NCBI RefSeq assembly: GCF_000023705.1
Contig: NC_012968.1
Coordinates: 62,001-126,000, forward strand
Source of the DNA: Methylotenera mobilis JLW8
GTDB taxonomy: Bacteria; Pseudomonadota; Gammaproteobacteria; Burkholderiales; Methylophilaceae
Reading direction: 5' to 3'
Length of the DNA stretch: 64,000 nt
Shown here: piece by piece, positions 42,994 through 59,114 of the stretch
How positions within the stretch are numbered: the first letter of the stretch is position 1
How the letters are laid out: each line of letters starts with the position of its first letter
Notes under the pieces: model-generated
What the model saw: the letters and a program-made list of their open reading frames with translations, nothing else
Told to the model about the DNA's origin: nothing
Databases searched by the model: none
Translations under genes and position numbers: made by a program

Positions 42994-43048
42994 GGTGTTA
43001 ATAGGTAAGTTTTACTTAATTGACGCTTTTTTCGCAAAGGATTAAAAA

Positions 43049-43597: not shown

Positions 43598-43621
43598 ACT
43601 TTAAATGTACTCAACATAGAA

Positions 43622-43659: not shown

Positions 43660-43681
43660 GTGGATTGTTAGTATTGTTGGG

Positions 43682-44089
43682 CTAGTTTGCTTGAGTGATT
43701 ACTGCAAGCTTTGTGATACCAGAGCGTTCAATCGCTGCCATGACTTTTGCAACTGAACCATATTTAACAGACTCGTCTGAATTCAAATGATAAGTTTGGT
43801 CCGGATTGCTGTTGTATCTTGATTTTAACTCTGGCTCCAGTGCTGCTAGCGCCACAGCCTGTTTATCAATGTAAACGTTGCCTTCTGCATTCACACTAAT
43901 AGTGACCGGTGTGCTGGAGTCAGCTAGTTTGGTTGCACTCGCTTTGGGTAAATTAACGGTGATTGCATTATTGAGCAATGGTGCAGTCACAATAAATACT
44001 ACCAGCAGCACCAACATCACATCCACTAATGGAGTGACGTTGATTTCGCTTAACACGTCATCACCATCACTTTGGGAGGAAAAAGCCAT
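43682..44089 (-). CDS. exbD: ExbD-like energy-transducing protein
   Basis: The 135-residue protein has one N-terminal membrane helix (LVDVMLVLLVVFIVTAPLL) including the conserved Asp needed for proton use, and a periplasmic domain. Its start overlaps the exbB stop by one base. It forms the inner-membrane motor with ExbB that energises TonB. It is the last gene of the ssuB-tonB-exbB-exbD operon. Confidence 0.93.
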   Translation of the reverse strand: MAFSSQSDGDDVLSEINVTPLVDVMLVLLVVFIVTAPLLNNAITVNLPKASATKLADSSTPVTISVNAEGNVYIDKQAVALAALEPELKSRYNSNPDQTYHLNSDESVKYGSVAKVMAAIERSGITKLAVITQAN

Positions 44090-44814
44090 TATGCTACCGC
44101 TCCTTTCAGGTTGTGTACCACCGCTTTTTCGCCTTGGTTAGCGGTTGCGTCATTATTTTTTCTGAAAGTTGCCTTGCGTGACAAAGTAATTAAGTCTTCT
44201 GCAAAGTCATCCAGATTATTGCTGCTGGTTTTTAATCTGCGTAAGAAAAAGTTATAAGCCAATACTGCGGGCACGGCAACTGCAATGCCTACTGCAGTTG
44301 CAATCAATGCCTCACCTATTGGGCCCGCCACTACATCCAAGCTGGCAGAGCCGGTTTTTCCGATGGCAGAGAGTGCATGCATGATGCCCCACACCGTGCC
44401 GAACAGACCAACGAATGGTGCTGTGCTGCCTATGCTCGCTAGCACTACTAGACCGCTCTCTCTGGTGACGCGCTCTTTCTGAATTTGCTGGCGTAATGCG
44501 CGCTCCAGTACATCTTGTCTATCGCCAAAATGTTGTAAGTCATTGGCAGTGTTGGAGTCAATATCTTTTAATACATTAAAACCTACAGTAGCCACCCGGT
44601 AGGCAGGGCCGTTGTGGTCTTTCAGGTCTGCGGCTGATTGGAAATTACGCGCACTCCAAAATGCTGCTCTGTATTTAACATTTTGCTTGCGGATTAACCA
44701 TACCTGTAAAGATTTGGCCAAGATTAAAGTCCACGTGACAAAAGACCCTGCAATCAGTGTTAATAGCACGGCTTGTACAACAATGGAGGTAGAAGTGTCA
44801 GAAAAATTATACAT
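44089..44814 (-). CDS. exbB: ExbB-like (MotA/TolQ/ExbB) proton channel
   Basis: The 241-residue protein has three membrane helices and the family core TAPFVGLFGTVWGIMHAL and AVAVPAVLAYNFF. It pairs with ExbD as the proton motor for TonB. It sits 13 bases after tonB. Together with tonB and exbD it forms a private energising system, separate from any housekeeping TonB elsewhere in the genome. Confidence 0.93.
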   Translation of the reverse strand: MYNFSDTSTSIVVQAVLLTLIAGSFVTWTLILAKSLQVWLIRKQNVKYRAAFWSARNFQSAADLKDHNGPAYRVATVGFNVLKDIDSNTANDLQHFGDRQDVLERALRQQIQKERVTRESGLVVLASIGSTAPFVGLFGTVWGIMHALSAIGKTGSASLDVVAGPIGEALIATAVGIAVAVPAVLAYNFFLRRLKTSSNNLDDFAEDLITLSRKATFRKNNDATANQGEKAVVHNLKGAVA

Positions 44815-44827
44815 AGTAAGATTACCT

Positions 44828-45634
44828 TTATTTAGCTAGTTTGAATTCAATAGGGACGGTCGCCCAGCCATCAATGGCAGTGCTACCACGTTTGGATGGT
44901 ATGAATATCCAGTTTCTAACGGCATTGCTTGCCGATTCATCCAAAGTCTTGCGACCGCTGGATTGTTTTATTTCCACCTTGTCCGGCTTGCCGTTTGCCA
45001 GCACATGCACGCGTAGCAGAACTTTGCCTTCCCAGCCCTGGCGCTGTGCAAACGCAGGGTATTCTGGCGGTGGGTTATTTAAATAAGCAGCGTTGCCTGT
45101 TGCCTCAGTAATTGGCTCTTCTGCCTTTACCGTTGGGACTTCTGGTGCAGGCGGGGCCGCCACTATTGGTGCCGCAGTGACTGGTGCCTGACGGTTCTCT
45201 GGAATAGTGATAGCCTCGGCTGGTACGTTTTCCTGAGCGACTGCTGTGCGTAATGCAGGCGCAGGTTTTGCTACTTGTGGTGTTACCGGTTTAACCATCT
45301 TGGGCGGTGGAGGCGGTGGCTTAGGCGGCTCAATCACTTCTGGTGGCTTGGCTTTGATAAATTCAATCTCCACCTTATTCAGCTTTGGTTGCTGCACTGC
45401 CGGTGTTGCCTGGTAGTTCAGATAGGCAATCACAGCTACGCCATGCAAGAGCGCCGCGAGTGCGCCTAATGCCAATAGATGGCGCTTATTAATGGCCGTA
45501 TGCTCAATTACAGCATCTGGTTTAAAGTCGTATGCAGTGAGGTGCGGATACATTATTGTTTCAGTGTCATAGGCGGTCGTTGCCTCTATGTCAGCACTGG
45601 CAAATGCGACTGAAGATCTGGTTAATGTAGACAT
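44828..45634 (-). CDS. tonB: TonB energy transducer
   Basis: The 268-residue protein has an N-terminal cytoplasmic part of about 50 residues, one membrane helix (LLALGALAALLHGVAVIAY), a Pro-rich periplasmic linker (PPKPPPPPPKMVKP) and a C-terminal TonB domain (YPAFAQRQGWEGKVLLRVHV). The cytoplasmic extension is longer than in E. coli TonB. It should energise the receptor at 51078-53447. Confidence 0.93.
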   Translation of the reverse strand: MSTLTRSSVAFASADIEATTAYDTETIMYPHLTAYDFKPDAVIEHTAINKRHLLALGALAALLHGVAVIAYLNYQATPAVQQPKLNKVEIEFIKAKPPEVIEPPKPPPPPPKMVKPVTPQVAKPAPALRTAVAQENVPAEAITIPENRQAPVTAAPIVAAPPAPEVPTVKAEEPITEATGNAAYLNNPPPEYPAFAQRQGWEGKVLLRVHVLANGKPDKVEIKQSSGRKTLDESASNAVRNWIFIPSKRGSTAIDGWATVPIEFKLAK

Positions 45635-45673
45635 ATTAATCCTTCTGCCAAGGGTGATGATTTGCAGCCAGCA

Positions 45674-46567
45674 TTACTCCACCCCTGTCATCGAGAAGTC
45701 AGACATGACATCAGTCTTGATATTTTGGAATAAATACGAAGAGCGGTCGCGTGGGCGAGGAAGTGGTACAGGGACGATACGCTTGATGCGGCCAGGGTGG
45801 GACTCCATGACCACAATACGGTCACCCAAAAATATGGCTTCTTCAACGTCATGCGTGACTAATATGGTGGTGAGGCCCTCTTGTTCCCACAGACGTTGCA
45901 GCTCCTGCTGCAGCTTCAGCCTAGTCAGTGCGTCCAATGCGCCAAATGGCTCATCCAACAGCAACAGTTTGGGCTTTAGCACCAATGCTCTGGCAATAGC
46001 CACACGCTGTGACATACCGCCAGAAATCTGATGGGGGTAGGCTTTTTCAAAGCCGGTTAAGCCAACCACGTTAATCTGCTGCTGAACACGCAGCTTACGC
46101 TCATGTTTAGGTACATCCGTGGCAGAAAAAGCTAAGTCTATATTTTCTTCCACAGTCATCCATGGGAATAAGCGATGCTCCTGAAACACAATGCCGCGGC
46201 TTAGGTCTGTGCCTGTTATCAGTTTGCCCTGATAGATAATGGACCCTGCGTACTGTGTGTCTAGACCAGCGATTAACCTAAGTAAGGTAGATTTTCCGCA
46301 ACCGCTGGTACCAACGATAGATAAAAACTCACCTGGAATAATCTCAAGGTTAATGCCATCAAGCACTTTAAGCGTCGTATTTTGCAGTTGGTAGCTTTTT
46401 ACTACGTCCTGAATCAATAAAGACTCTTTATTTATCGTTTTATTAGTTTTGGTGGTGATCAGGTTTTTATGAGGATGAAGTGCAGCAGGGGAATCTGTTG
46501 CTATATTCACCTTGTTAAAAGGTGCTGCGCTTTTGCTAAAGTCTATAGCCACGTTATATGTTGTCAT
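45674..46567 (-). CDS. ssuB: Aliphatic-sulfonate-type ABC transporter ATPase
   Basis: The 297-residue protein has Walker A GTSGCGKST (near residue 92), signature ISGGMSQR, Walker B LLLLDEP and an H-loop (ILVTHDVEEA), typical of SsuB/TauB. It carries an N-terminal extension of about 50 residues before the ATPase core. Unusually, it is separated from its permease genes, which lie on the other strand at 49176-50751, and is instead the first gene of the tonB-exbBD operon. One sigma-54 promoter (46622-46640) drives all four. Confidence 0.9.
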   Translation of the reverse strand: MTTYNVAIDFSKSAAPFNKVNIATDSPAALHPHKNLITTKTNKTINKESLLIQDVVKSYQLQNTTLKVLDGINLEIIPGEFLSIVGTSGCGKSTLLRLIAGLDTQYAGSIIYQGKLITGTDLSRGIVFQEHRLFPWMTVEENIDLAFSATDVPKHERKLRVQQQINVVGLTGFEKAYPHQISGGMSQRVAIARALVLKPKLLLLDEPFGALDALTRLKLQQELQRLWEQEGLTTILVTHDVEEAIFLGDRIVVMESHPGRIKRIVPVPLPRPRDRSSYLFQNIKTDVMSDFSMTGVE

Positions 46568-46621
46568 GCCTTAAATTCTCCATACCAATAAACAATTGCC
46601 ACGAATGGCTCTGAATCTATA

Positions 46622-46640
46622 CTGCAAACGCCATGCCAAA
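46622..46640 (-). promoter_or_regulatory. Sigma-54 promoter of ssuB-tonB-exbBD
   Basis: On the minus strand TTTGGCATGGCGTTTGCAG is a close match to the -24/-12 consensus, with GG and GC ten bases apart. It lies 57 bases upstream of the ssuB start. Confidence 0.75.
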
Positions 46641-46701
46641 ATAAACTTATGTTTATAAACATATAGTTAAGTAATTTATGTGTATTTTTAAGCCTTTTAT
46701 T

Positions 46702-46806
46702 TGTTGCTTAAGCAACAGTCGATAAATGATTGCTGTTGAATTGGCAGCATATGTATTTGGATCCGTGTGCATGCTTAGGCTGCTGCTTAGGCAACAGCAC
46801 TGTTGC
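46702..46806. promoter_or_regulatory. Cluster of activator-site palindromes between divergent sigma-54 promoters
   Basis: TGTTGCTTAAGCAACA (46702-46717) is a perfect 16-base palindrome. GCAACAG-CA-CTGTTGC (46791-46806) is a second. A third related half-site run (GCTGCTTAGGCAAC) overlaps the latter. They lie 60-200 bases from both divergent -24/-12 elements, the usual distance for enhancer sites of sigma-54 activators. Binding by the SfnR-like protein is inferred. Confidence 0.6.
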
Positions 46807-46899
46807 TGTTGCCGCATATGCTCTGCGGTGTAATCAGCAGATTGGCTCGTAAATTAAGTTTTTGTTATATATGTTATTGATTCGTATATATTTTATTTG

Positions 46900-46917
46900 T
46901 TGGCATGAAGCGTGCTC
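46900..46917 (+). promoter_or_regulatory. Sigma-54 promoter of the first desulfinase-like operon
   Basis: TTGGCATGAAGCGTGCT has the -24 GG and -12 GC with ten bases between. The start codon is at 46971. Confidence 0.7.
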
Positions 46918-46970
46918 AATCCTAATCAAGTTTTGCGTGTGTCCACGCATTAAATATTTAGGGAGAAATC

Positions 46971-48011
46971 ATGAGTACAGCATTAGACACACTTTGGTAT
47001 ACACGTTGCCCTGTGCCAACAGGATTAGGCATAGCCGTGCAAAAAGGCTGGTTAGAGGAGAGTTTTCGCGCGAAATCTACCAAGATTGAATCATTGCGTG
47101 AGTCAAATAATCAATCAGTACGCGAATCGCACTTTGACCATACTTTAGCTAATTCAGTCCGGCATGGCGGTAATATCCCAGCGATATGGGCACGTGCTAT
47201 TGGTCGCGAAACCAAGGTAATTGGTCTGTCATGGGCAGATGAGGCTCAGCTGATTTTAACTACGCCTAGTTCTGGTATACGCAATGTTAAAGATTTAAAA
47301 GGTAGAAAGTTTGGTTTGCCTAGGTGGGTAAATGTACAGATTGATTTTGTTCGTGCACAAGCGTTACGCGGATTAGAAAATGCACTTAGTTTAGACGGCT
47401 TGGCGGTAAGCGATGTTGAGATTGTGGATTACGAGATTGGCATTGGCTACAGCGACGCGCCAGCTAAAAAAAGTGCGGATGGTAGCTACATCTTCGGCAG
47501 CCAGTCAGGCAGCCGTAACGACGAATTAATAGGTTTGCTACGTGGTGAGGTGGATGCCATTTTTCTCAAAGGGGCAAGCGCAGTAGCACTAGCGAGTCAG
47601 CTAAATCTTGTGACGGTCATTGATACTGGAGCGCATCCTGAGCCGTTGATTCGTTCCAATAATGGTACACCACGTACTTTGAGTGTGGATACTCATCTAA
47701 TTGAAAATCATTTTGATGCGGCTGAGCGTATCGTGGAACAGGTGCTTCGCGCTGAAGATTGGGCACATGTACACCCTGATGAAACACGTCGCTTCTTGGC
47801 TAAAGAAACCAACAGTAGTGAATATTGGGTAAGTGTAGCGTATGGCGCAGATGCACATCTGCGTCTGCAAACCGATTTTGCACAGACGTCTATTGATGGA
47901 TTGCAGGATTTTGTGAATTTTCTGCACCGTTGGGAATTTATTCCTAAGCCATTCAATGTGAATGATTGGATTGATACCAGACCTTACGATGCTGTGATCA
48001 GCAAGCGCTAG
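46971..48011 (+). CDS. DszB-like sulfinate desulfinase homologue (copy 1)
   Basis: The 346-residue protein has the periplasmic-binding-protein fold but no signal peptide, so it should be cytoplasmic. It shows TRCPVP with C13, and H54 followed ten residues later by R64 and GG (HFDH ... VRHGG). The DszB desulfinase uses Cys27, His60 and Arg70, with the same CPVP motif, the same His-to-Arg spacing and the GGEIPP segment matching GGNIPA here. DszB releases sulfite from a sulfinate. The natural substrate here is unknown. Automatic annotation would probably call it an ABC substrate-binding protein. It heads an operon with the SsuA-like protein and two permeases. Confidence 0.75.
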   Translation: MSTALDTLWYTRCPVPTGLGIAVQKGWLEESFRAKSTKIESLRESNNQSVRESHFDHTLANSVRHGGNIPAIWARAIGRETKVIGLSWADEAQLILTTPSSGIRNVKDLKGRKFGLPRWVNVQIDFVRAQALRGLENALSLDGLAVSDVEIVDYEIGIGYSDAPAKKSADGSYIFGSQSGSRNDELIGLLRGEVDAIFLKGASAVALASQLNLVTVIDTGAHPEPLIRSNNGTPRTLSVDTHLIENHFDAAERIVEQVLRAEDWAHVHPDETRRFLAKETNSSEYWVSVAYGADAHLRLQTDFAQTSIDGLQDFVNFLHRWEFIPKPFNVNDWIDTRPYDAVISKR

Positions 48012-48081
48012 GCGATTATTGCCTGATAGGCTTGGTATTAAGAGTCTCTGGCTAATTTTTGTATTTGAATGTGAGAACAAA

Positions 48082-49173
48082 ATGAATTTCAGTATTAAAA
48101 ATAGAACCCCTGTTATTGCGTGGTTGTTGGTGGGCTTGGCATTTATGTTTGGCCTGTTCACCGATGCCAATGCAGACCCTGCTAAAGAGGTCAGGATTGC
48201 AACCGTAGCCTACAACGTTAATGGCAAGATAGGTTTTAACGGCACGGCTGCTATCGTGGAGGAGCAGGGCTGGCTAAAAGAAGAGCTTAAAAAGCAAGGC
48301 GTAACCCTTACCTGGGTGCCAGTTACTGCCCAATCTGTGGGTGTGACCATTAACGAAGGTTTTGCTAATAAGAGTATAGACTTTGCTGGTTATGGCGATT
48401 TGCCATCGATTATCCTTAACTCTGGCGGAATAGAAACGCGCATTGTGGTGCCAGGTGGGCGAGGTAATAATGTGTATCTGGTGGTGCCGCCTAATTCCAG
48501 TGCAAAATCGCTGGCTGACCTAAAAGGTAAACGCATTGCTTTGCACCGCGGCCGCCCTTGGGAAATAGCGTTTGCCCGCTATGTGGCAGCAAGCGGGTTC
48601 AAATTTTCAGATTTCAAAATATCTAACTTAAATCCGGGTGCTGGCGCCGCTGCTTTAGCTGCCGGCAATGTAGATGCCTTTGTTACGTTGAGCGATGCCT
48701 ATCAGCTGGAGGATAAAAAAGTAGGCAAGATTATTTGGTCCACCAAGAGCGCGGCACAAGATTGGAAAATGCGAGCTGAGTTATGGGGCGCCAAAGACTT
48801 TATTGCGCAAAACCCTGCTATCACGCAGATTATTGCTACTGCTTACGTGAGAGCAGTGTACTGGACCTCGCAAGAAGCACATCTGGATGAGTATTTGAAG
48901 ATTGCGAATCAAAATGGCCAGCCTGAAAACGTATTCAGACGTGAATATTCAGATGACTCCGTATCATGGAAGCTACGCTGGAGCCCACTGTTTGATGACC
49001 TAGTGCTAGATCACTATGCCAATGTTGCTCAATATAGCCGACAGGCCAACCTTATTCGCAAGGATATTAATACCAAGCAATTGTTTGATGCGCGCTTTTT
49101 AAATGCAGCAATCAAGGAGCTTAAGCTTGAAGGTTACTGGCAACCGAGGAAACCTGCGTTTAGAGGGGCTTAG
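48082..49173 (+). CDS. ssuA: Sulfonate-type ABC transporter substrate-binding protein
   Basis: From the ATG at 48082 (MNFSIKNRTP; the frame opens earlier at 48019) the protein has 363 residues and a true signal peptide ending in DANA, unlike the two desulfinase-like paralogues. The core (FAGYGDLPSIILN, then GAAALAAGNVDAF) matches SsuA/TauA binding proteins. It should deliver a sulfonate or related anion to the permeases just downstream; the next gene starts two bases after its stop. Confidence 0.88.
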   Translation: MNFSIKNRTPVIAWLLVGLAFMFGLFTDANADPAKEVRIATVAYNVNGKIGFNGTAAIVEEQGWLKEELKKQGVTLTWVPVTAQSVGVTINEGFANKSIDFAGYGDLPSIILNSGGIETRIVVPGGRGNNVYLVVPPNSSAKSLADLKGKRIALHRGRPWEIAFARYVAASGFKFSDFKISNLNPGAGAAALAAGNVDAFVTLSDAYQLEDKKVGKIIWSTKSAAQDWKMRAELWGAKDFIAQNPAITQIIATAYVRAVYWTSQEAHLDEYLKIANQNGQPENVFRREYSDDSVSWKLRWSPLFDDLVLDHYANVAQYSRQANLIRKDINTKQLFDARFLNAAIKELKLEGYWQPRKPAFRGA

Positions 49174-49175
49174 CC

Positions 49176-49952
49176 ATGACAAGGATAAGGAATATAGCGA
49201 ATAGTCTGCATACTAATGCATTGTTTTTTGTGTCGCCTGCTGTGCTGTTGCTTGCATGGGCATGGGTATGCAGTGCAGGCATATTTCCGGAGCAGATTTT
49301 AGTTTCACCCGCTGGTGTGTATCAAACTGCGCACGAGCTTTGGGGTAATGGTGAGCTGCAATCACATCTGCATGACAGCTTGTATCGTCTGGTGTTGGGC
49401 TTCGCTATCGGCTCATTGCTAGGCTTAGTATTCGGTGTATTGATGGGGCTGTTTAAGCCTATAGATGCATTTTTTGCACCTACCTTTAATGCCTTACGAC
49501 AGGTGCCAACTATCGCTTTTATCCCTATGTTGGTTATGATTTTTGGGGTGGAAGAGACGTTCAAGATTGTGGTGGTGGCTAAAGCAGCCTTTTTCCCAAT
49601 TACACTTGCCACCTATGATGCGGTTAAAAACATTCCAAGCAGTTATTTCGAAGTGTCTAAAGTGTATCAACTATCCCACGTAAGCTTAGTTCGGCAGGTT
49701 ATTCTGCCTGCGACGGTACCACCGATACTGACAGGGCTGCGTCTGGCGCTGGGGCGTTCTTGGATGGTGCTGGTGGCAGCGGAGTTGATAGCGGCAGACA
49801 GCGGCATAGGGCAAATGATGGAAATGGGTAGGCAGATGTTCAGAATAGATATTGTTTTGGTGGGGGTGTTGGTCACTGGGGTGATCGGCTTTTTGCTAGA
49901 CCGCAGTTTGCGCTCTGTAGAGACGCATCTTGGCCGCTGGAAACAAAGCTAA
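49176..49952 (+). CDS. ssuC: Sulfonate-type ABC transporter permease 1
   Basis: The 258-residue protein has six membrane helices and the ATPase-contact motif EVSKVYQLSHVSLVRQVILPATVPPILTGL. It is a typical SsuC/TauC permease. The paired permease at 49969 is 16 bases downstream, so the transporter probably uses a heterodimer, whereas classical SsuC is a homodimer. Confidence 0.9.
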   Translation: MTRIRNIANSLHTNALFFVSPAVLLLAWAWVCSAGIFPEQILVSPAGVYQTAHELWGNGELQSHLHDSLYRLVLGFAIGSLLGLVFGVLMGLFKPIDAFFAPTFNALRQVPTIAFIPMLVMIFGVEETFKIVVVAKAAFFPITLATYDAVKNIPSSYFEVSKVYQLSHVSLVRQVILPATVPPILTGLRLALGRSWMVLVAAELIAADSGIGQMMEMGRQMFRIDIVLVGVLVTGVIGFLLDRSLRSVETHLGRWKQS

Positions 49953-49968
49953 CTAATTAGCAGAGGTA

Positions 49969-50751
49969 ATGATGAGTATAATTAATCAGTTTTCATCGAG
50001 GATTACGCATTTGAGAGGGCTGCTACTGCCGACTACAGTAGCCGTGATGTGGGAGTTTATGTCGCGGCAGGGGGATGCTTATACCTATATTTTTGTGCCT
50101 TTACGCCAAATCGGCGGCGGTTTTGTCGAGCTGATTCAAAGCGGAGAGTTGTTGATTAATCTCGTGGCAACTTTACAGACTACTGTAATTGGGTTGCTCA
50201 TAGGCGGATTTTTCGGCCTGATGGTGGGTGGTTTAATGGCCGTGTCGCCATTTGCCAATAAATTAATCGGACCGCTGTATCATACTTTGCGACAGGTACC
50301 GTTGCTGGGATTAATCCCGTTAATCGCCTTATGGTTTGGCAATGATCTGTTTTCTAAAATCCTGATTGTCAGTCTTGCGGCATTTTATCCCATCGTGCTG
50401 AATACGTTTGAGGGCATGCGAGGCATAGAGCGTAAGTATGTAGAAGTAGCATCGGTGCTTAAATTTAACCGTTTGCAGTTGTTAGTACATGTTTTATTGC
50501 CTGCTGCCACGCCATCAATCATGACCGGGTTTATGCATGCATTAGCTTTTGCCTGGGTCTCTACCGTAGGCTCTGAGCTGCTATTTTCTACCGGCCCTGG
50601 TGTTGGTGGGTTGATGCTGATGGCGCAGGAGTCATCAAGAATGGATATTGTGATTGTGGCTGTGGTCAGTATCGGTTTGACCGGTTTACTGATGAACGCT
50701 AGTCTGTCTCATCTACGTCAATATCTGCTGCGTTGGCGCAGCGTACGCTAA
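49969..50751 (+). CDS. ssuC: Sulfonate-type ABC transporter permease 2
   Basis: The 260-residue protein is a second permease of the same family, with EVASVLKFNRLQLLVHVLLPAATPSIMTGF as its contact loop. It shows clear divergence from permease 1, suggesting an old duplication. A strong terminator follows at 50788-50818. The ATPase of this transporter is encoded on the opposite strand at 45674-46567. Confidence 0.9.
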   Translation: MMSIINQFSSRITHLRGLLLPTTVAVMWEFMSRQGDAYTYIFVPLRQIGGGFVELIQSGELLINLVATLQTTVIGLLIGGFFGLMVGGLMAVSPFANKLIGPLYHTLRQVPLLGLIPLIALWFGNDLFSKILIVSLAAFYPIVLNTFEGMRGIERKYVEVASVLKFNRLQLLVHVLLPAATPSIMTGFMHALAFAWVSTVGSELLFSTGPGVGGLMLMAQESSRMDIVIVAVVSIGLTGLLMNASLSHLRQYLLRWRSVR

Positions 50752-50787
50752 TGCAGTATTAAGCAAAGCGGTTCTCCTGATATGTGT

Positions 50788-50818
50788 GCGGTGCGTCTTC
50801 GGATGCACCGCTTTTTTT
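50788..50818 (+). terminator. Intrinsic terminator of the ABC operon
   Basis: GCGGTGC pairs with GCACCGC around a UUCG-type loop and is followed by seven T. Confidence 0.9.
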
Positions 50819-50888
50819 ATAGATTTTTCAGCCATTTTTTTCATATGAGCTTGAGCCATAAACCATCAATATCGGCTGTTTATTAACA

Positions 50889-50981
50889 AGCAACTGTTTT
50901 AATTGTTGCTGCATATACAACAAGAATAATCATGTGCCAATTGGTTGGTTGCTATTTATGTTCAATTAAATCAACAGGTTG
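50889..50981 (+). promoter_or_regulatory. Activator palindrome and IHF-like site before the receptor gene
   Basis: AGCAAC-N10-GTTGCT (50889-50910) matches the candidate activator palindromes seen at 46702 and 46791. AATCAACAGGTTG (50969-50981) fits the IHF consensus WATCAA-N4-TTR. The order enhancer, IHF site, -24/-12 is the classical sigma-54 layout. Confidence 0.6.
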
Positions 50982-50996
50982 TTCTGTGATTTAGAC

Positions 50997-51014
50997 TTGG
51001 CACATATTCTGCAC
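50997..51014 (+). promoter_or_regulatory. Sigma-54 promoter of the TonB-dependent receptor
   Basis: TTGGCACATATTCTGCA has GG at 50999 and GC at 51011 with ten bases between. The ATG is at 51078. Confidence 0.7.
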
Positions 51015-51077
51015 TCTCTATAACTGTTAAGGCATATATGCCATGAAAATTTTAATCACAGTTAAAGAGAGTATTCA

Positions 51078-53447
51078 ATGAGAAGTAAAGAAATTAAAGG
51101 CGCCCATCCGCGTCAGGCTATTTTCCAGTTAAAGCCGCTGGTAAAAAATGTATCACTAGCATTAGCAATTAGTGCGGCTACGGTCCTTAATGCCAATCTG
51201 TCTTATGCTGAGGAGGTTGTATCCGCCCAGTCTGAAGATAAGTCCAAAGCAGAAGGTGTAGCGCTACCTTCTGTGACGGTGACTTCACAAAAGCGTGAGG
51301 AGAGTGTGCAGGAAGTAAAAACAGCGATTACAGCTTTAGGCGGTAAAGATTTGCTTGATCAAGGGGTGGGGCGCTCAGCCAGTGAGGTGCTGAATTATGT
51401 GCCCAATGCGTCAGCTGCAACACAGCAGCATGGGCGACCACGTTGGTGGATTCGCGGTGTAGGGGCAGGCCAGCAGCAATATGATTTATCAAACCCGGTC
51501 GGGTTCTATTTGGATGAAGTCTATATCAGTAATGCCAGTGCTACAGGCTTTCCCTTATTTGATATCGAGCGTGTAGAGGTGCTACGCGGCCCACAAGGCA
51601 CGTTATGGGGTAAAAACACGACTGGCGGTGCGGTGAGTGTCGTTTCAAAAAAACCATCGTTTAATACCGATACCAAAGATAATTATGTGAAAGTGGATTA
51701 TGGCAGCTATAACGACAGAATCGTACAAGGGGGCGTAGGCGGCGTGATTATTGATGAGCGCTTAGCTGGCCGCGTGTCGTTTTTACAAGAAGACCAAGAT
51801 GGTCGTTTGAAAAACCAGTTTACCGGCAGTAATGATGGCGGCTTATCAGAAGGGGCGATTCGTGGGCAGTTGCTGGCTATTTTAACGCCTGATGTAGAGG
51901 CGCTGCTAAACGTGCATTACCGTAAATATGAAACGGATGGCGCGATTACCACTACCAGAAGTTATGCAGCTAATGGTGTGCTGCGCAACGGCTACGCGCC
52001 AAGTAAAAACATTACGCATGTCAGCACCAATGCGCCTGATTATAGTGATAACACGCAAAATGGCGTGAGCTTGAATTTGAAATGGCAGCTGGGTCGTTTG
52101 GCGCTAACCTCTATCACCGGCTATGAAGATTTTCAGTCTGAAATATTGACCGATAACGACTTTACGCCACTTGAGATTTCCAGATCGCATACCGATGGCA
52201 AGAGCCATCAGTTTTCACAAGAGTTTAGGTTAGCATCACCGAAAGAAGACCGTTGGAACTGGTTGGCGGGTGCTCACTACTTTAATGAGAATGTGAATTT
52301 TAGTACGCAAGGTGCTAAATTACCATCTGCCACCGTGCCGGGATTGGCTGGTGCGCCACCGGGTGCAACTTATAACAAATCAGACTTAACGCATAATGCA
52401 GAGAGCTTTGCCTTGTTCGGCAGTAATACTTATAACTTTACCGAGCAGCTCAATGCGACCTTAGGTTTGAGATGGACGCGTGAAACCAAGGAATATGAGC
52501 TAAATAGAAAAGGCTCGACCGGCACAGGCTCATGGAGCAATCTGGCACAGTGGTGGAGCACCTATACTGGTGGATATGCATCAGCAGGTCCAGCAGGCTC
52601 AGGCACGTTTAGCGCTAAAAACTCCAAGACCTGGAACGCGATTACTTACGATATTACTCCAGAGTATAAGATCACTCCGCACGACCGTGTATATGCAAAG
52701 TACTCGCATGGCGAGAAGTCTGGCGGCTTTAATACTGCTGCCACTAATCTAGCCGCGGTCAATACGGTAAAGCCGGAGCAGTTAGATGCTTATGAGCTTG
52801 GTTACAAATCAGAGTGGCTAGGTGGGCGTTTAAACTTCAATACCAGCTTGTTCCATTACAACTATAAAGATGTACAGGTGAATGTTGTTGGCTTTAACGC
52901 TAATGCAGGAACTACAGTTTCTTATTTGCAGAATGCGAAAAAAGCCACTGTAAACGGTGCAGAGTTTGAGGTGGAGGCATTGCCGCTAGAGAATTTGCAT
53001 GTCAATGCCAGCCTAGGCTTGTTAGATGCAGATTATGATAGTTTACAGGTAGTGAACGGCGGGGCAGATTTGAGTGGTAGATCATTAGTACGTGCGCCGC
53101 ATGTAACGGCACAGCTTGCTGCGGATTATCGTATCCCTGTACGCTACGGTAAGGTGATTATTGGTGCAGATGCTCGCTACCAAGCCAAACAGTATTACTT
53201 TATTGATCCACAATCTGAAGCACGTGGTCACTTGAATCAAGAGGCTTACACCTTGGCAAATGCAAGGATTTCATTTGCCACGCACAATGACAAGTATTTA
53301 TTTACCGGCTACGTGAATAATCTATTTGATAAAGAGTACAAAAACCACTCATTGCCAGCTTTTAACGCAGCTCAGGGCGTTAATGGCGATAGCGTTTATT
53401 GGGCGGCGCCAAGAACAGTTGGCGTTTCGGTCACCACACGCTGGTAA
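51078..53447 (+). CDS. TonB-dependent outer-membrane receptor
   Basis: The 789-residue protein has a long signal peptide ending in LSYA, a TonB-box-like segment (SVTVTSQKRE), a plug domain (IERVEVLRGPQGTLWGKNTTGG) and a 22-strand barrel ending in an aromatic-rich TTRW. It belongs to the non-siderophore group of receptors. Its sigma-54 promoter and the private tonB-exbBD genes suggest it imports an organosulfur compound too large or too scarce for porins. Substrate not predictable. Confidence 0.92.
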   Translation: MRSKEIKGAHPRQAIFQLKPLVKNVSLALAISAATVLNANLSYAEEVVSAQSEDKSKAEGVALPSVTVTSQKREESVQEVKTAITALGGKDLLDQGVGRSASEVLNYVPNASAATQQHGRPRWWIRGVGAGQQQYDLSNPVGFYLDEVYISNASATGFPLFDIERVEVLRGPQGTLWGKNTTGGAVSVVSKKPSFNTDTKDNYVKVDYGSYNDRIVQGGVGGVIIDERLAGRVSFLQEDQDGRLKNQFTGSNDGGLSEGAIRGQLLAILTPDVEALLNVHYRKYETDGAITTTRSYAANGVLRNGYAPSKNITHVSTNAPDYSDNTQNGVSLNLKWQLGRLALTSITGYEDFQSEILTDNDFTPLEISRSHTDGKSHQFSQEFRLASPKEDRWNWLAGAHYFNENVNFSTQGAKLPSATVPGLAGAPPGATYNKSDLTHNAESFALFGSNTYNFTEQLNATLGLRWTRETKEYELNRKGSTGTGSWSNLAQWWSTYTGGYASAGPAGSGTFSAKNSKTWNAITYDITPEYKITPHDRVYAKYSHGEKSGGFNTAATNLAAVNTVKPEQLDAYELGYKSEWLGGRLNFNTSLFHYNYKDVQVNVVGFNANAGTTVSYLQNAKKATVNGAEFEVEALPLENLHVNASLGLLDADYDSLQVVNGGADLSGRSLVRAPHVTAQLAADYRIPVRYGKVIIGADARYQAKQYYFIDPQSEARGHLNQEAYTLANARISFATHNDKYLFTGYVNNLFDKEYKNHSLPAFNAAQGVNGDSVYWAAPRTVGVSVTTRW

Positions 53448-53475
53448 TTATCCACGCAAGTGTTGATGCAAAAAT

Positions 53476-53511
53476 CGCCAGATTGCCATTAGGTGGTCTG
53501 GCGTTATTTTT
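53476..53511 (+). terminator. Intrinsic terminator of the receptor gene
   Basis: CGCCAGA pairs with TCTGGCG, extended by wobble pairs, and followed by TTATTTTT. Confidence 0.8.
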
Positions 53512-53593
53512 ATCAGCGTAGGCATATCGAGGTAGCGTCTGCTACGTGTGCAAACCAAGCTGTTATTCATTTATATTCTGAGAGTTCATCCCT

Positions 53594-54802
53594 ATGAGCC
53601 AATCCAATACCTTCAATACCCAACGTCCCTTATTAGCCACCCACCATTTCACTTATTCATTTGTTGGCCTGGCGCTCATGAGCGGCATCACCATCGGTAT
53701 GAATAAGATTCTAGTCACTTTATTAGCGCTCCACCTGAATGCCGAGTCATGGCAGATAGGTTTGTTAATAGGAGCAGAAAGTTTATCGATGATGTTAATG
53801 TCGCTGCCCGCAGGCATCTTTATCAGCCGCTTCAGTGCGCGTTGGGTCTATGCAATTTCTAGTTTGGGCGCAATGATTTTATATCCGTTAATTGGCTACT
53901 CAACCTCTTGGTATCTTGCAGCTATTTTTTTATTTATTGCTGGAATTTGTATTCCATTTCGCGTGGTGGCCATGAATACCTCATGGTTAGAACGCCTGCC
54001 TGAAGTCGGCACTAGCCGTGGAGGCTGGTATCGAGGCACCTTGATGTTAGGCATAGGCTTGGTCGGGCCATTGCTTGGCAATTTAGTATCCAGTCATTTG
54101 GGGATACAGGGTAGCTATTGGATTACGAGCATATTATTTGCGGTGATGTCGTTTTATGGCTTCACTATTTTATCGCGTACACGTGAGTCCGCTGGCGCTA
54201 AAAGCGTACGTGGTGGAGTGAAGGAGATGCTGCAATACCTTACTGACCCGATGGTGCGTCAGGTATGTCTATATGATGGACTGGGGGGGATGGTACGTGG
54301 GTTTTTTGGTACTTTTATTATTGTTATTGCGGTGCGTCAATTTCACTGGAGTGCACAGCAGGGAATCACGCTGATGGTAGTAGAGGGTGCTGCATTTGTT
54401 GCGGTACTGCTATTTCTTGGGCATGTAGTGGCAAAGCTAGGTGAAAAAATAACGTATAACTTAAGCCATACCAGTCTGATTATCGGGTTGGCATTCTTGG
54501 GATTAAGTACTGGCGTGGTCGGGCTTTTGATTGGCGCTGTATTACAGGCGATAGGTCAAGCATTCAATCATCTCGTTAATATTTCACGATTGGCACATTC
54601 TGGTAAAAATATGGGTCATGTTTCAGGGTTATTTACCATGGTGGGTATGGCAGGTGGATTTGTGGGCGCCACTCTGGGCGGCTTTTTAAGCAAAGGTTTT
54701 GTGCTGCAGGATATATTTTTACTATGGATTCCTATCTGGTTGGCAGTATGTCCGGGCTTCCGTGCGTTTATCAGTAGCAACTTTAAAAAGATGACTACAT
54801 AA
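53594..54802 (+). CDS. Major facilitator superfamily transporter
   Basis: The 402-residue protein has about twelve membrane helices with the MFS loop GIFISRFSARWVYAI between helices 2 and 3. It lies after the receptor's terminator and its own promoter is unclear; no -24/-12 element was found. Within an organosulfur island it may export a desulfurised product or import a substrate. No specific family was recognised. Confidence 0.85.
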   Translation: MSQSNTFNTQRPLLATHHFTYSFVGLALMSGITIGMNKILVTLLALHLNAESWQIGLLIGAESLSMMLMSLPAGIFISRFSARWVYAISSLGAMILYPLIGYSTSWYLAAIFLFIAGICIPFRVVAMNTSWLERLPEVGTSRGGWYRGTLMLGIGLVGPLLGNLVSSHLGIQGSYWITSILFAVMSFYGFTILSRTRESAGAKSVRGGVKEMLQYLTDPMVRQVCLYDGLGGMVRGFFGTFIIVIAVRQFHWSAQQGITLMVVEGAAFVAVLLFLGHVVAKLGEKITYNLSHTSLIIGLAFLGLSTGVVGLLIGAVLQAIGQAFNHLVNISRLAHSGKNMGHVSGLFTMVGMAGGFVGATLGGFLSKGFVLQDIFLLWIPIWLAVCPGFRAFISSNFKKMTT

Positions 54803-54816
54803 GATATTAACGGTTT

Positions 54817-54856
54817 GCAAAATCAACAGTGCTGCTTCTCATCTTGTTGATTTTGC
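54817..54856 (+). terminator. Hairpin after the MFS gene
   Basis: GCAAAATCAACA (54817-54828) pairs perfectly with its complement at 54845-54856. No T run follows. The right arm merges into GCAGCAAC, so the region could also hold an activator site for the downstream sigma-54 promoter. Confidence 0.5.
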
Positions 54857-54908
54857 AGCAACTATTGAATTCACATCAATATGGATTGGTTTTTTGTTTG
54901 TAAAAATA

Positions 54909-54943
54909 CAATACAAATCAATAGGTTGTATTGATTTGTATTG
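54909..54943. promoter_or_regulatory. 15-base perfect palindrome with IHF-like core before the monooxygenase operon
   Basis: CAATACAAATCAATA (54909-54923) and its exact complement (54929-54943) flank GGTTG. The left arm and loop contain AATCAATAGGTTG, which fits WATCAA-N4-TTR for IHF and shares AAATCAAYAGGTTGT with the receptor promoter. It begins 41 bases before the -24 GG compared with 31 in the receptor promoter, one helical turn different. Confidence 0.55.
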
Positions 54944-54953
54944 GCAGGTGATA

Positions 54954-54971
54954 TTGGCATGCATCCTGCAA
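54954..54971 (+). promoter_or_regulatory. Sigma-54 promoter of the monooxygenase-desulfinase operon
   Basis: TTGGCATGCATCCTGCA has GG at 54956 and GC at 54968 with ten bases between. The start codon is at 55043. Confidence 0.75.
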
Positions 54972-55042
54972 ATTAAAAGAAATAGCGCTACATATACATA
55001 TCAAGGTAGCTAGTTAATTCAGTTTAATTTTAGGAGGAATGT

Positions 55043-56110
55043 ATGACTACAGAATTCTTGTGGCAATTGCCAACCAGCGGTGATGGGCGTTACGGCAATA
55101 GTAGAAAAGAGCGCCGTGCAGAACGTGCCTCATCCGCTCACCCCTACTCGGATGTCCTGACGGATCCTCGTGGTTTGAGCTTCAACTATTTTGATTACCT
55201 GCACCAAGTTGCACGTGCGGCAGATCTTGCTGGTTTTGATGGCATACGTATTCCAGAAGATATCAATGGTGATGAGCCATGGATCATCGCAGGTTATGTG
55301 GCACGTGGCAGTCGCCATTTAAAGCTAGTCACTGAGTTTGATGCCTCACGTGGTTCGTCAGTGTATGCAGCAAAAAATACAGTGAGCTACCAGCGCTTTA
55401 CCGATGGGCGCTTTGCATGGCAGATCAGTGCTGGCGGTGATGACAAGCATAGACGCGCTTTAGGGGACTTTGTGGCAGATAGTGAAATTAATCCGCGCAT
55501 TGAAGAATTTGTTACCGTAGCGCGCGGCGTACTCACCCAGTCTCCATACAGTTTTAAAGGAAAGTATTTCGAGGTGCTGAATGGCGGATTTCAAGGGGCA
55601 TTATCTAACCAAAAAGTGCCGCCAATTTACCTTTCCGGTAAGAGTAAGGAGTCTTTGGCGCTATCGGCCAAAGTGGCAGACTTTCACATCTTCGATGCAG
55701 ACACGGTAGAGAGTGTCCAACAGCAAATCCAAGAACTTAGCTCGCTAGCCAAACAGTATGGACGTGAGATTGCATTTGCGCTACGTATCGATATCGTCAG
55801 CCGTGAAACTGAGGATGAAGCGATTTTTGATGCACAACGTTATTGGCAGCAGTCTACGCAAAACCATCATCAGCCTGAGCTGAACGGTAATCTATGGGTA
55901 GGCTTATCAACTGATACCACAGCAGCCAATGCCACTCTAGTCGGCAGCTACGAGCAAGTGACGCAAGCACTTGTGGCCTATGCCGCTGCCGGGGTTAGCA
56001 GCTTCCTGCTTTCATCTGTCCCGCACTTTGAAGAGGCCTACCGCCTAGGGGAACATGTTTTACCTGGGGTGCGCGCTCAAATCAAGCACGATCAACGTCG
56101 TGCTGCCTAA
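55043..56110 (+). CDS. SsuD-like flavin-dependent monooxygenase 1
   Basis: The 355-residue protein is a luciferase-like monooxygenase of the SsuD/DszA-related group, opening with FLWQLPTSGDGRYG and ending with SSVPHFEEAYRLGEHVLP, the SsuD-type C-terminal signature. It is more divergent from SsuD than its neighbour and lacks the long loop around the middle. It uses reduced FMN and O2, probably from the reductase at 43049, to oxidise an organosulfur compound. A GGAGG site precedes the ATG. Substrate may differ from alkanesulfonates. Confidence 0.85.
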   Translation: MTTEFLWQLPTSGDGRYGNSRKERRAERASSAHPYSDVLTDPRGLSFNYFDYLHQVARAADLAGFDGIRIPEDINGDEPWIIAGYVARGSRHLKLVTEFDASRGSSVYAAKNTVSYQRFTDGRFAWQISAGGDDKHRRALGDFVADSEINPRIEEFVTVARGVLTQSPYSFKGKYFEVLNGGFQGALSNQKVPPIYLSGKSKESLALSAKVADFHIFDADTVESVQQQIQELSSLAKQYGREIAFALRIDIVSRETEDEAIFDAQRYWQQSTQNHHQPELNGNLWVGLSTDTTAANATLVGSYEQVTQALVAYAAAGVSSFLLSSVPHFEEAYRLGEHVLPGVRAQIKHDQRRAA

Positions 56111-56130
56111 TTAAATTTAAGGAATATTGT

Positions 56131-57285
56131 ATGACTATTGATGTTTTTTGGCGGATTCCCACCCACGGTGAACCTAGCTCACACCGTAATCGCACTCCGC
56201 ATCGAGGTGACTGGTTCCCTGGAGATGACACTAAAGCCAAGCCAGGAAGTGTGGGCGGCACTGGAGAGGGTTATATCGACTATGTGGCAGAGATTGCGCG
56301 TGCTGCTGAGATTTCAGGTTTTCAGGGTGGGTTGATTCCATCTTTCCCGATGACAGATGAGCCTTGGGTGATTTCTTCATTACTCGCGCGTGAAACCTCT
56401 ACGTTTCGCTTCATGATTCCGTTTCAGCCAGGATTTTTGAACCCAGTAGTCGCTGCGCGGATGACCGCAAGTTTGCAGCGCGCTACCGGTGGTAGAGCTT
56501 TATATAACATTATTACTGGTGGCGGAGGTCCTGCGCAATTATGGTGGGGAGATTCAGCGTCTCATGATGATAGATATGGCAGAACCACAGAGTTTTTGGA
56601 TGTATTAAAAGGGGTTTGGAATGGCGGACCGTTCTCGTATAAAGGCAAGTTTTATCAAGTGGAAGATGCTGGATTAGCGCACCCATTATCTCAAGAAGAG
56701 TACCCTGAAATATACTTCTCAGGCTCTTCCGATGCCGCACTGGCCTCTGCCTCCAAGCATGCTGATTATTACCTGACATGGCTGGAACCATTTGAGCAGC
56801 TACGTGAGAAATTTGACCGGGTTAAAGCACGCACTCAGATTCTTGGACGTAAAATTAAATGCGCTATCCGTGTGGATATCATTGCTAGACCAACGGAAGA
56901 AGAAGCGTGGGCTGAGGTTGAAAAAGGATTTAACAGCTTGAGCCGCGAAGCTTTGGATAAATTCCAAAACCCAGATGCCAGTGACTCAGTAGGTGCTGCG
57001 CGCCAGCGTGGTAATCGCCCAACCACCATCAATAGTTATAAAGATTTGATTATTGAGCCAAATGTTTGGTCTGGCTTTAGCCTGCTACGCGGTGGTCAAA
57101 CCAACGGCATAGTTGGTAGCTATGAGCAGGTAGCTGAACGCTTGGATCAACTGGTGGCGTTGGGTGCCGATGCATTTATTTTAGCCAGCACACCACATCT
57201 TGAAGAAGCGTATCGCGTGGGCGAAGAGGTGCTACCGTTATTGCGTGGCAAAACTGATACTGCGATTTTACGAGCTGTGGGGTAA
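56131..57285 (+). CDS. ssuD: SsuD-like flavin-dependent monooxygenase 2
   Basis: The 384-residue protein is close to alkanesulfonate monooxygenase SsuD: VFWRIPTHGEPS, LYNIITGGGGPAQLWWGD, DYYLTWLEPFEQL and TPHLEEAYRVGEEVLPLL all match by eye. SsuD cleaves alkanesulfonates to aldehyde and sulfite. Two such enzymes in one operon with a desulfinase suggest sequential oxidation, for example thioether or sulfone to sulfinate or sulfonate. It starts 20 bases after monooxygenase 1. Confidence 0.88.
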   Translation: MTIDVFWRIPTHGEPSSHRNRTPHRGDWFPGDDTKAKPGSVGGTGEGYIDYVAEIARAAEISGFQGGLIPSFPMTDEPWVISSLLARETSTFRFMIPFQPGFLNPVVAARMTASLQRATGGRALYNIITGGGGPAQLWWGDSASHDDRYGRTTEFLDVLKGVWNGGPFSYKGKFYQVEDAGLAHPLSQEEYPEIYFSGSSDAALASASKHADYYLTWLEPFEQLREKFDRVKARTQILGRKIKCAIRVDIIARPTEEEAWAEVEKGFNSLSREALDKFQNPDASDSVGAARQRGNRPTTINSYKDLIIEPNVWSGFSLLRGGQTNGIVGSYEQVAERLDQLVALGADAFILASTPHLEEAYRVGEEVLPLLRGKTDTAILRAVG

Positions 57286-57290
57286 TTGAG

Positions 57291-58367
57291 ATGGCTAATC
57301 CATTACCAGTCAATCAGCCATCCGGTTCTCAATTAAACGACATCTGGTTTACACGCTGCCCAGTGCCTACAGCAACTGGTTTGGCGTATAAATTAGGATG
57401 GCTTGAAGAGGAGTTTGCAAAAGATGGTATCTCAGTCGCAACGATTCAGGATGCGCCTAAAGCGCTTGCGCGCCATCATTATGATCATGAAATCACCAGT
57501 TTGATTCGAGAGGGTGGCAGCTTGCTTGCCTTGGCGGCCAAAGCTCAGGGTGCAAAAACAAAAGTCATCGGATTAACCTGGATAGATGAATGGCAGGTGA
57601 TTTTGGTGAGCAAGGGCTCTCCTATCAATCGGCCGGCAGACCTTAAAGGGCGACGTATTGCATTACCAGCGTATGTTGATCGTGAAATACAGTCACATGT
57701 GCGCGGCAGCAGCATTGCACGTGGCATGACCTTGCAGGGGGTAAAGGGCGTTTTGGCATATGCCGGATTAACGCTGGATGACGTGTCATTTGTAGAGGTA
57801 GGCTCGGGGCAGGGTTCAGATACTGGCCTAGGCAGCCTGTGGTCAGGGCTCGATAGCCTGGCACGTGGCGAAGTAGATGCAGTGTATGTTAAAGGCGCAT
57901 CGGCAGTGGATGCGGCTAAACGCTACGGTGCAATAGTGGGCATTGATATTGATAGGATCACTGACCGTCGATACCGCGTCAATAATGGCACGCCACGGCC
58001 GATTACTGTGCATGAAGATTTGATTGAAAACCACTTTGAGTTGTTGGTGCGCTTTCTTGGTCAAACATTACGTGCGGCCGATTGGGCAGCTTCTAATCTG
58101 GATGGGGTGCATAAGATTTTAAAAGAAGAAACCCGTGCCGGCGATGATGGGGTGGCGACAGCTTATCGTGATGGGTTCCACCAGTCGTTACACCCTAGCT
58201 TATCAAAAGAGTTAATGGATTTATTCAGAATCCAAAAGAACTTCACCTTAATTCATGGCGTGTTAGACCATGATTTTAATCTGGATACATGGATAGACCC
58301 CAGACCATTGGCTGCTGCACGCCAGTGGCTGGATAACTATTACCATACGCAGGAAAAGGCTGCGTAA
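57291..58367 (+). CDS. DszB-like sulfinate desulfinase homologue (copy 2)
   Basis: The 358-residue protein is a clear paralogue of the protein at 46971-48011. C23 lies in TRCPVP, and H63 is ten residues before R73, which precedes EGG. This is the DszB pattern (Cys27, His60, Arg70). There is no signal peptide. It starts five bases after monooxygenase 2, so oxidation and desulfination would be encoded together as in the dsz pathway. The two copies differ outside the active-site motifs, which suggests different substrates or a division of roles. Confidence 0.75.
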   Translation: MANPLPVNQPSGSQLNDIWFTRCPVPTATGLAYKLGWLEEEFAKDGISVATIQDAPKALARHHYDHEITSLIREGGSLLALAAKAQGAKTKVIGLTWIDEWQVILVSKGSPINRPADLKGRRIALPAYVDREIQSHVRGSSIARGMTLQGVKGVLAYAGLTLDDVSFVEVGSGQGSDTGLGSLWSGLDSLARGEVDAVYVKGASAVDAAKRYGAIVGIDIDRITDRRYRVNNGTPRPITVHEDLIENHFELLVRFLGQTLRAADWAASNLDGVHKILKEETRAGDDGVATAYRDGFHQSLHPSLSKELMDLFRIQKNFTLIHGVLDHDFNLDTWIDPRPLAAARQWLDNYYHTQEKAA

Positions 58368-58397
58368 TTTATTTAATTTTAATGAAGGAGTTTTAGC

Positions 58398-59114
58398 ATG
58401 GGAAAAATTGATACAGAGTTAGCCGCCGATGTCTCGGCATTTGCACAAAGCGTGAAGCAAGACGCTGAGCACGCCTTTAGGGTGCTGCGCGAAACAGATA
58501 CCACCACCGCTTATGGTACGGTTGGCTTTGTGGTACGTGTACCTGGGCATGAGAAGCTGGTGGTGGTGAATGATCCGGGTCCGTGGAATAGGGGCGCAGA
58601 AATCACGCCAGCCATTATTGGCTTTGATGGCGCTGTGTTTGCAGGCAACCATAGCGGCGGCAAGCGCTACAACAAGCTATTTATTGAGCATCCTGACGTA
58701 AATATTATTTCACACGTGCATACACTTTATCTGGCTGCTTGGGCACAAACGCACCGTACTTTTCCTATCAACTATGTTGCGTTTAATCGCCATCATCTGG
58801 TGCGCGAGTTGCCAATTTATATTGATAGACGCCAGCCTGAAGTAGATTTTATTGTGGAGAAAGTGAATGAAAATCCACATAACTTTGCCATTATTGAAGC
58901 CAATGGCGGTGGCACGGTATGGGGTAAAGGCGGTGTGAGAGCATTGACTGATACTATTATTCTGCTCGAAGAAACTGCGCGCTTGCAACTGCTGGCTGAG
59001 GCGGTAGGTGGCTCAAGAAATTATGGTGCGGGTGCCTTAAGGCAAAATTGGACCATGACAGGTTTGTTCGATGAGGCCAAAACATTAGGCCTGCTGCCTA
59101 TTACCGATATCTAG
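58398..59114 (+). CDS. Class II aldolase/adducin-family protein
   Basis: The 238-residue protein matches the class II aldolase fold: NDPGPWNRGAE region, GNHSGGKRYNKLF and the zinc-binding pair in SHVHTLYLAAW. The family includes sugar-phosphate aldolases and decarboxylases. In this operon it may cleave or rearrange the carbon product released after C-S cleavage. A GAAGGAG site precedes the ATG. It is the last gene of the operon driven by the promoter at 54954. Substrate unknown. Confidence 0.82.
   Translation: MGKIDTELAADVSAFAQSVKQDAEHAFRVLRETDTTTAYGTVGFVVRVPGHEKLVVVNDPGPWNRGAEITPAIIGFDGAVFAGNHSGGKRYNKLFIEHPDVNIISHVHTLYLAAWAQTHRTFPINYVAFNRHHLVRELPIYIDRRQPEVDFIVEKVNENPHNFAIIEANGGGTVWGKGGVRALTDTIILLEETARLQLLAEAVGGSRNYGAGALRQNWTMTGLFDEAKTLGLLPITDI

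Follow-up and report, generated by a model that had tools for sequence, protein, structure and literature searches.

Two genes encoding proteins of the DszB family, here named B1 and B2, were identified in a 64,000-nucleotide stretch of the genome of Methylotenera mobilis JLW8 (contig NC_012968.1, positions 62,001 to 126,000; the window). DszB is the 2'-hydroxybiphenyl-2-sulfinate desulfinase (PDB 2DE2, 2DE3 and 2DE4). A first-pass annotation of the window, made from the DNA letters, had read B1 and B2 as DszB-like desulfinases hidden among transporter genes, and both open reading frames (ORFs) are present where it had placed them (Table 1).

The B1 and B2 genes

The motif described in the first-pass annotation was found in both proteins. 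CPVP with its Cys (C13 in B1, C23 in B2) forms part of a shared TRCPVPT near the N-terminus, which is followed by a His and, ten residues further, by an Arg that begins Arg-x-Gly-Gly (H54/R64 in B1 and H63/R73 in B2). The two proteins are 36% identical. The B1 gene precedes genes for an SsuA-like substrate-binding protein and two permeases, with which it forms one unit, and the B2 gene belongs to a separate unit, LLM1-LLM2-B2-aldolase, with gaps of 20, 5 and 30 base pairs (bp); B2 starts 5 bp after the second of the two SsuD-like monooxygenase genes, and the contexts given earlier are as described. No hydrophobic N-terminal stretch was detected in B1 or B2 by hydropathy, the sole basis of the signal-peptide reading, which agrees with the claimed absence of a signal peptide; the SsuA-like protein adjoining B1 does have such a stretch in the same test. 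To judge from their sequences, B1 and B2 are most likely cytosolic.

Table 1. Coordinates of B1, B2, neighbouring genes, promoter-like sites and other features (window positions unless a locus is named)
Feature	Position	Strand	Remarks
B1, DszB-family protein, 346 aa	46971-48011	+	C13, H54, R64-x-G-G, T11
B2, DszB-family protein, 358 aa	57291-58367	+	C23, H63, R73-x-G-G, T21
LLM1, luciferase-like monooxygenase, SsuD-related	55043-56110	+	SsuD-equivalent positions poorly kept among homologues
LLM2, luciferase-like monooxygenase, SsuD/MsuD type	56131-57285	+	T, D, T at SsuD C54, H228, Y331
Class II aldolase/adducin-fold protein	58398-59114	+	HxH kept
SsuA-like substrate-binding protein	48079-49173	+	hydrophobic N-terminus; start set at MNFS Met
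ABC permease 1	49176-49952	+	SsuC type by context; homologues in 32/80 loci
ABC permease 2	49969-50751	+	SsuC type by context; homologues in 31/80 loci
ABC ATPase, SsuB/TauB-related	45674-46567	-	
TonB-like protein	44828-45634	-	read from sequence
ExbB-like protein	44089-44814	-	read from sequence
TonB-dependent outer-membrane receptor	51078-53447	+	
MFS transporter	53594-54802	+	
Flavin mononucleotide (FMN) reductase, nearest MsuE	43049-43597	+	207.4 bits vs cut-off 212.5
Sigma-54 activator	41751-42869	+	about 40 residues ahead of AAA+ domain
Sigma-54-type -24/-12 site	46623-46638	-	strict; 56 bp before ATPase-TonB-ExbB unit
Sigma-54-type site	46901-46916	+	strict; 55 bp before B1
Sigma-54-type site	50998-51012	+	looser pattern only; 66 bp before TonB receptor gene
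Sigma-54-type site	54955-54970	+	strict; 73 bp before LLM1
Third DszB-like paralogue, Asp for His	L003 11477-12529		homologues L052, L071, L072, L074, L075, L076, L081, L082
SoxY-SoxZ fusion	8706-9569	-	
Metallo-beta-lactamase-fold protein	7785-8702	-	
Short ORF, no Pfam match	7405-7794	-	
Flavocytochrome c sulfide dehydrogenase flavoprotein	6140-7402	-	

Relationship of B1 and B2 to DszB and to binding proteins

In a phmmer search of PDB sequences, DszB (2DE2) was the best match of both proteins over nearly the full length (E = 7.8e-9 for B1 and 2.2e-10 for B2), whereas SsuA (2X26) reached E values of 0.016 and 0.33, respectively. The alignments place the Cys, His and Arg of B1 and B2 on C27, H60 and R70 of DszB, at an overall identity of about 25-30%. 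Since the homology spans the whole length, the motif is no short chance coincidence, and a chance match was rejected on these alignments. A profile search and a fold comparison, along the lines proposed in the first-pass annotation, gave the same order. A profile of 47 members, picked among those with the full triad, matched DszB almost from end to end (5.2e-32) and SsuA over a short stretch (3.2e-5). AlphaFold models built from family alignments (mean predicted local distance difference test score, pLDDT, 93.8 for B1 and 92.8 for B2) were compared by Foldseek, in which DszB ranked first for B1 (5.7e-21, template modelling score, TM, 0.76) and for B2 (6.3e-20, TM 0.71), a comparison at the level of the fold; SsuA ranked second (2.2e-14 and 2.7e-15). 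In a quick maximum-likelihood tree that included E. coli SsuA and TauA along with other binding proteins, DszB groups with the B1/B2 family rather than with these (SH-aLRT 97). The designation DszB-like is therefore borne out by sequence, profile, tree and predicted fold.

The residues on which DszB depends have been described (PMC6100217). C27 donates the proton in the calculated mechanism, which is an electrophilic aromatic substitution; C27S is inactive and H60Q suffers a loss of about 17-fold; R70 lies within an RXGG motif that is conserved in homologues; S25 forms a hydrogen bond with H60, and G73 contacts R70. The C27S variant has been crystallised with substrate bound (PMC6100217; PDB). 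Of these residues, the Cys, the His, the Arg and both Gly are present in B1 and in B2, and the position of Ser25 is occupied by Thr (T11 and T21, respectively), a conservative change.

A scan of 84,980 species genomes yielded at least 521 stretches that encode a relative. The Cys-His-Arg set was compared in 193 DszB-like ORFs from 93 loci and is complete in 151; 24 have Ser-His-Arg, 7 Cys-Asp-Arg, 2 Ser-Asp-Arg and 9 another combination. The scan pattern included the Cys, and the 80 primary matches therefore all carry the full set by selection. The 97 further DszB-like ORFs in those loci were not selected by pattern and comprise 56 with Cys-His-Arg, 24 with Ser-His-Arg, 6 with Cys-Asp-Arg, 2 with Ser-Asp-Arg and 9 others. 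Sixty DszB-like rows of the alignment read T-C/S-H-H/Q-R-G-G-E, and the family has invariant residues with no counterpart in DszB, e.g., H66, E100 and K201 (B2 numbering). At the corresponding columns, none of 53 aligned SsuA-like ORFs, which come mostly from the same loci, has any one of the Cys, the His, the Arg or the Gly-Gly.

These data bear on an alternative reading, in which B1 and B2 would be conventional binding proteins of the SsuA type with an overlooked start codon or signal peptide. The nearest models point that way, NMT1 being the Pfam match and SsuA_fam the only NCBIfam match, and so do the public plasmid records of relatives, most of which, where named, read "ABC transporter substrate-binding protein" (one public record calls a relative a monooxygenase, once with the gene name soxB). 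The scores against SsuA_fam are, however, 85 bits (B1) and 63.6 bits (B2) against a cut-off of 163.5, and a hydrophobic stretch occurs in only 6 of 189 DszB-like ORFs, in 5 of them upstream of a later Met (an over-long start call) and in 1 after the motif. Furthermore, the B1 operon already provides an SsuA-like protein with a hydrophobic N-terminus. Membership in the SsuA/TauA group is thus not indicated by hydropathy or by the SsuA_fam score, and this reading, disfavoured also by the profile and the triad alignment, was rejected as very improbable.

Several loci contain variant paralogues. A Cys copy stands beside a Ser copy in 19 of 32 Pseudomonas loci (e.g., L028, L039, L048 and L059), and all 24 Ser-His-Arg copies retain the His, the Arg and Gly-Gly; by sequence, they are natural counterparts of DszB C27S. 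A third paralogue in which Asp replaces the His occurs in nine Sphingobium/Sphingomonas loci (Sphingomonadaceae), and in two of them (L071 and L074) Ser additionally replaces the Cys. Both kinds of variant look, from these residues, like binding-only relatives, which keeps alive the explanation that B1 and B2 are themselves non-catalytic cytosolic binders that carry, store or sense either the sulfur compound or the sulfinate made from it, passing it on, e.g., to the monooxygenases or the sigma-54 activator. Their fold, being that of binding proteins, fits this role as well. On the other hand, a pure binder has no need of the Cys, and B1, B2 and the 56 neighbouring ORFs mentioned above all retain the DszB triad together with Gly-Gly; a purely binding role is accordingly rated unlikely. 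Rhizobium johnstonii encodes a very remote DszB-like protein (L009, 7947-9122), which has the Cys-His-Arg set, is annotated as substrate-binding and lacks a Pfam match.

Gene cluster, promoter-like sites and distribution

LLM2 is nearest to MsuD (E = 6.7e-70) and SsuD (2.3e-68), and it scores 284.8 bits with the SsuD model, below the cut-off of 518.2. At the SsuD positions C54, R226, H228, R297 and Y331, which were located in the alignment and whose roles in SsuD are assumed here, LLM2 has T, R, D, R and T, respectively. Among 29 LLM2 homologues (at least 400 bits), all have T at the equivalent of C54, R at that of R226 and H at that of H333; D at the H228 equivalent and R at the R297 equivalent are each found in 26, and T at the Y331 equivalent in 25. 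Homologues of LLM1 keep fewer of the SsuD residues (the R226 equivalent in 18 of 28), and this poor retention suggests that LLM1 may be a partner subunit, by analogy with LuxAB. The HxH of the aldolase-fold protein is kept in at least 95% of 67 homologues; the protein presumably lacks the usual third His and acid of class II aldolases. The sigma-54 activator appears to have no sensory domain, as only about 40 residues precede its AAA+ domain. The MFS transporter is a possible exporter of the desulfurised product.

Sigma-54-type sites lie before four transcription units of the cluster, which ties B1 and B2 to one regulon. The pattern was based on what we take to be the -24/-12 consensus and was written after two sites had been seen by eye, so that the third strict site, the looser fourth site and the genome count are the independent observations. 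In the window, three strict sites were found against 0.22 expected, a number reached in none of 100 shuffles, and the looser pattern added the fourth (1.09 expected; four reached in 1 of 100 shuffles). The whole 2.55 Mb genome contains 18 strict sites, three of them in the cluster, and the reversed control gave 2. Loose sites are present in 71 of the 80 loci, in total 177 against 15 in one mononucleotide shuffle. The 15 strict sites outside the cluster may point to further members of the regulon. Perfect palindromes at 46702-46717 and 46790-46813, between the divergent sigma-54-type promoters upstream of B1, are possible activator sites.

The recurrence of the gene set was counted across the 80 loci from the scan of species genomes, with 26 genus-level labels assigned by hand from record titles and with homologue score thresholds chosen after the gene content of the loci had been viewed. 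Homologues are most frequent for the aldolase-fold protein (67 loci), LLM2 (54) and B1 (53), followed by the sigma-54 activator (36), the substrate-binding protein (35), the TonB receptor (34), the ATPase (33), LLM1 (28), the MFS transporter (14) and the FMN reductase (8). In 49 loci with 14 labels, the distance between the aldolase gene and B2 does not exceed 400 bp. Most of the set occurs together in loci of Janthinobacterium, Massilia, Duganella, some Pseudomonas and Sphingobium, and in three actinomycete loci (L047, L078 and L088) it is reduced to a permease, the ATPase, B2, LLM1 and LLM2. Other arrangements include a B1-like gene between genes for an SfnG-like monooxygenase and an SfnB-like protein in Rhizobium (L008), an acyl-CoA-dehydrogenase-like gene adjoining B2 in Pseudomonas (L048) and NtaA/DmoA-type genes near relatives in L003 and L005. 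The family is patchy: it was found in 3 of 41 near genomes, all of one genus, and in 6 of 299 sampled Pseudomonadota genomes (E up to 1e-40), the genome of M. mobilis JLW8 being included in both counts.

The close linkage of the aldolase gene to B2 also agrees with the possibility that B1 and B2 are DszB-fold enzymes for another organosulfur reaction, such as a desulfonation, an elimination or a step shared with the aldolase-fold protein. The deep divergence from DszB and the invariant H66, E100 and K201 would be explained in the same way. However, the residues that carry the chemistry of DszB are kept, and monooxygenases of the sulfinate-making kind (SfnG) are among the relatives or neighbours; another reaction is consequently considered somewhat less likely still than a purely binding role.

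Two further gene groups of the window were noted. Tn7-like transposition genes stand in a row at 12509-18131 (TnsA-like endonuclease, integrase-core transposase, TniB-like ATPase and TniQ), and a sulfur-redox module occupies 6140-9569 on the minus strand (Table 1).

Proposed function and comparison with known systems

B1 and B2 are interpreted, at a probability of roughly 0.6, as cytosolic, cofactor-free and deeply diverged sulfinate desulfinases of the DszB family that would end a sulfur-scavenging route resembling the 4S pathway. In the proposed route, the TonB receptor and the SsuABC-type transporter would import an organosulfur compound, and the MsuE-like reductase would supply reduced FMN to LLM1/LLM2, which would cut one C-S bond and leave a sulfinate. 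B2 and B1 would then protonate the carbon via the Cys while the Arg and His hold the sulfinate, and the sulfite set free would enter cysteine synthesis. The sigma-54 activator would turn on the four units together, presumably under sulfur limitation. Each copy may have a substrate of its own or act at a separate step, and the presence of a TonB receptor might mean that the imported molecule is rather large or scarce. Besides the homology and the kept residues, this interpretation draws on the FMN-dependent C-S monooxygenases in the operon of B2, the position of the B1-like gene of Rhizobium L008 between SfnG-like and SfnB-like genes, the shared sigma-54-type promoters, and the precedent of bdsABC, which includes a distant DszB-type desulfinase beside ABC genes.

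Several points weigh against it. SsuD-type enzymes normally free sulfite themselves, and a desulfinase would be superfluous if the substrate of LLM2 were a sulfonate. The proposed route also leaves the aldolase-fold partner unexplained. The fold also serves mere binding, and the retention of Cys-less paralogues (Ser-His-Arg in 24 of 97 neighbouring ORFs) indicates that it can fill a non-catalytic role in this family too. An identity to DszB of about 25-30% leaves the reaction undecided, DszB and several other sequences form long branches in the quick trees, so that their joins are possibly false, and the set behind the profile and the models was chosen for having the triad.

As to the substrate, the first-pass annotation had considered a new desulfination pathway for aliphatic or natural organosulfur compounds plausible. 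The recurrence of the gene set, with its sigma-54-type promoters, lends strength to the idea of a new pathway, of which the aliphatic substrate is the weak part. An electrophilic substitution like that calculated for DszB suits a sulfinate on an aryl or vinyl carbon, and by this analogy aryl or vinyl sulfinates are favoured over aliphatic ones. More tentatively, B1 and B2 may represent a large class of sulfinate desulfinases that has gone unannotated and acts in a sigma-54-controlled route with a split LLM1/LLM2 monooxygenase and an aldolase-fold partner. In some lineages, a copy with Ser for Cys or Asp for His would accompany the active one as an integral binding or regulatory subunit. Such a class would supply soil bacteria, plant-associated bacteria and methylotrophs with sulfur from natural organosulfur compounds.

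To our knowledge, few cofactor-free sulfinate desulfinases have been described. If active, the family would offer numerous enzymes to start from and would fill a gap in the organosulfur cycle of soils with proteins whose annotated members are mostly labelled as transporter parts. DszB is a slow step in fuel biodesulfurisation (PMC12168087). A dimethyl sulfide route reported in 2026 runs via methanesulfinate and methanesulfonate to sulfite, and the text of that report contains no word starting with "desulfin" or "sulfinate" (PMC13352529). A direct desulfination branch is made testable by B1 and B2.

Descriptions of such clusters were not found in the titles and abstract openings listed by searches of the open-licence PubMed Central literature. 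A Rhodoferax study on sulfolane reports no dszB (PMC6395730) and thus gives no clue to the substrate.

DszB shares with B1 and B2 the fold, full-length homology, the Cys/His/Arg-x-Gly-Gly set and the lack of a signal peptide. B1 and B2 differ from it in their low identity, the Thr for Ser25, the extra invariant residues and the absence from the window of partners like DszA (NtaA/DmoA type) or DszC. The presence of a classical dszABC operon was rejected for the window, as LLM1 and LLM2 score best with SsuD and far lower with TIGR03860; no acyl-CoA-dehydrogenase-like protein was found among the ORFs of 41751-59114. The acyl-CoA-dehydrogenase-like neighbour in Rhizobium L008 is likewise not designated a DszC: its best PDB matches are 5Z8T and 5GJ7, no entry named DszC is among the best 60 of 76 matches, and the nearest NCBIfam model is SfnB, with a score below the cut-off.

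The SsuEADCB and msu/sfn systems have in common with the cluster an FMN reductase, luciferase-like monooxygenases, SsuABC-type import and a sigma-54 activator; SfnR is sigma-54 dependent. We know of no desulfinase in these systems, and LLM2, unlike SsuD, lacks C54, H228 and Y331. The periplasmic binding proteins SsuA and TauA resemble B1 and B2 in fold and, weakly, in sequence but carry signal peptides and have none of the three triad residues. That this fold can accommodate a cytosolic enzyme is exemplified by Thi5 (HMP synthase; Foldseek ranks 12 and 13), although its reaction is unrelated and its similarity to B1 and B2 much lower.

Among described systems, bdsABC of Gordonia terrae C-6 comes closest. 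According to its description, a desulfinase of the DszB type with low homology to DszB, encoded beside ABC genes, takes part in benzothiophene desulfurisation, and bdsABC is up-regulated with benzothiophene as the sulfur source (PMC3868597). The host is an actinomycete, and the likeness to B1 and B2 is known from the published description rather than from sequence; a DszB-distant desulfinase (putative in the case of B1 and B2), flavin monooxygenases and ABC transport genes are common to both clusters.

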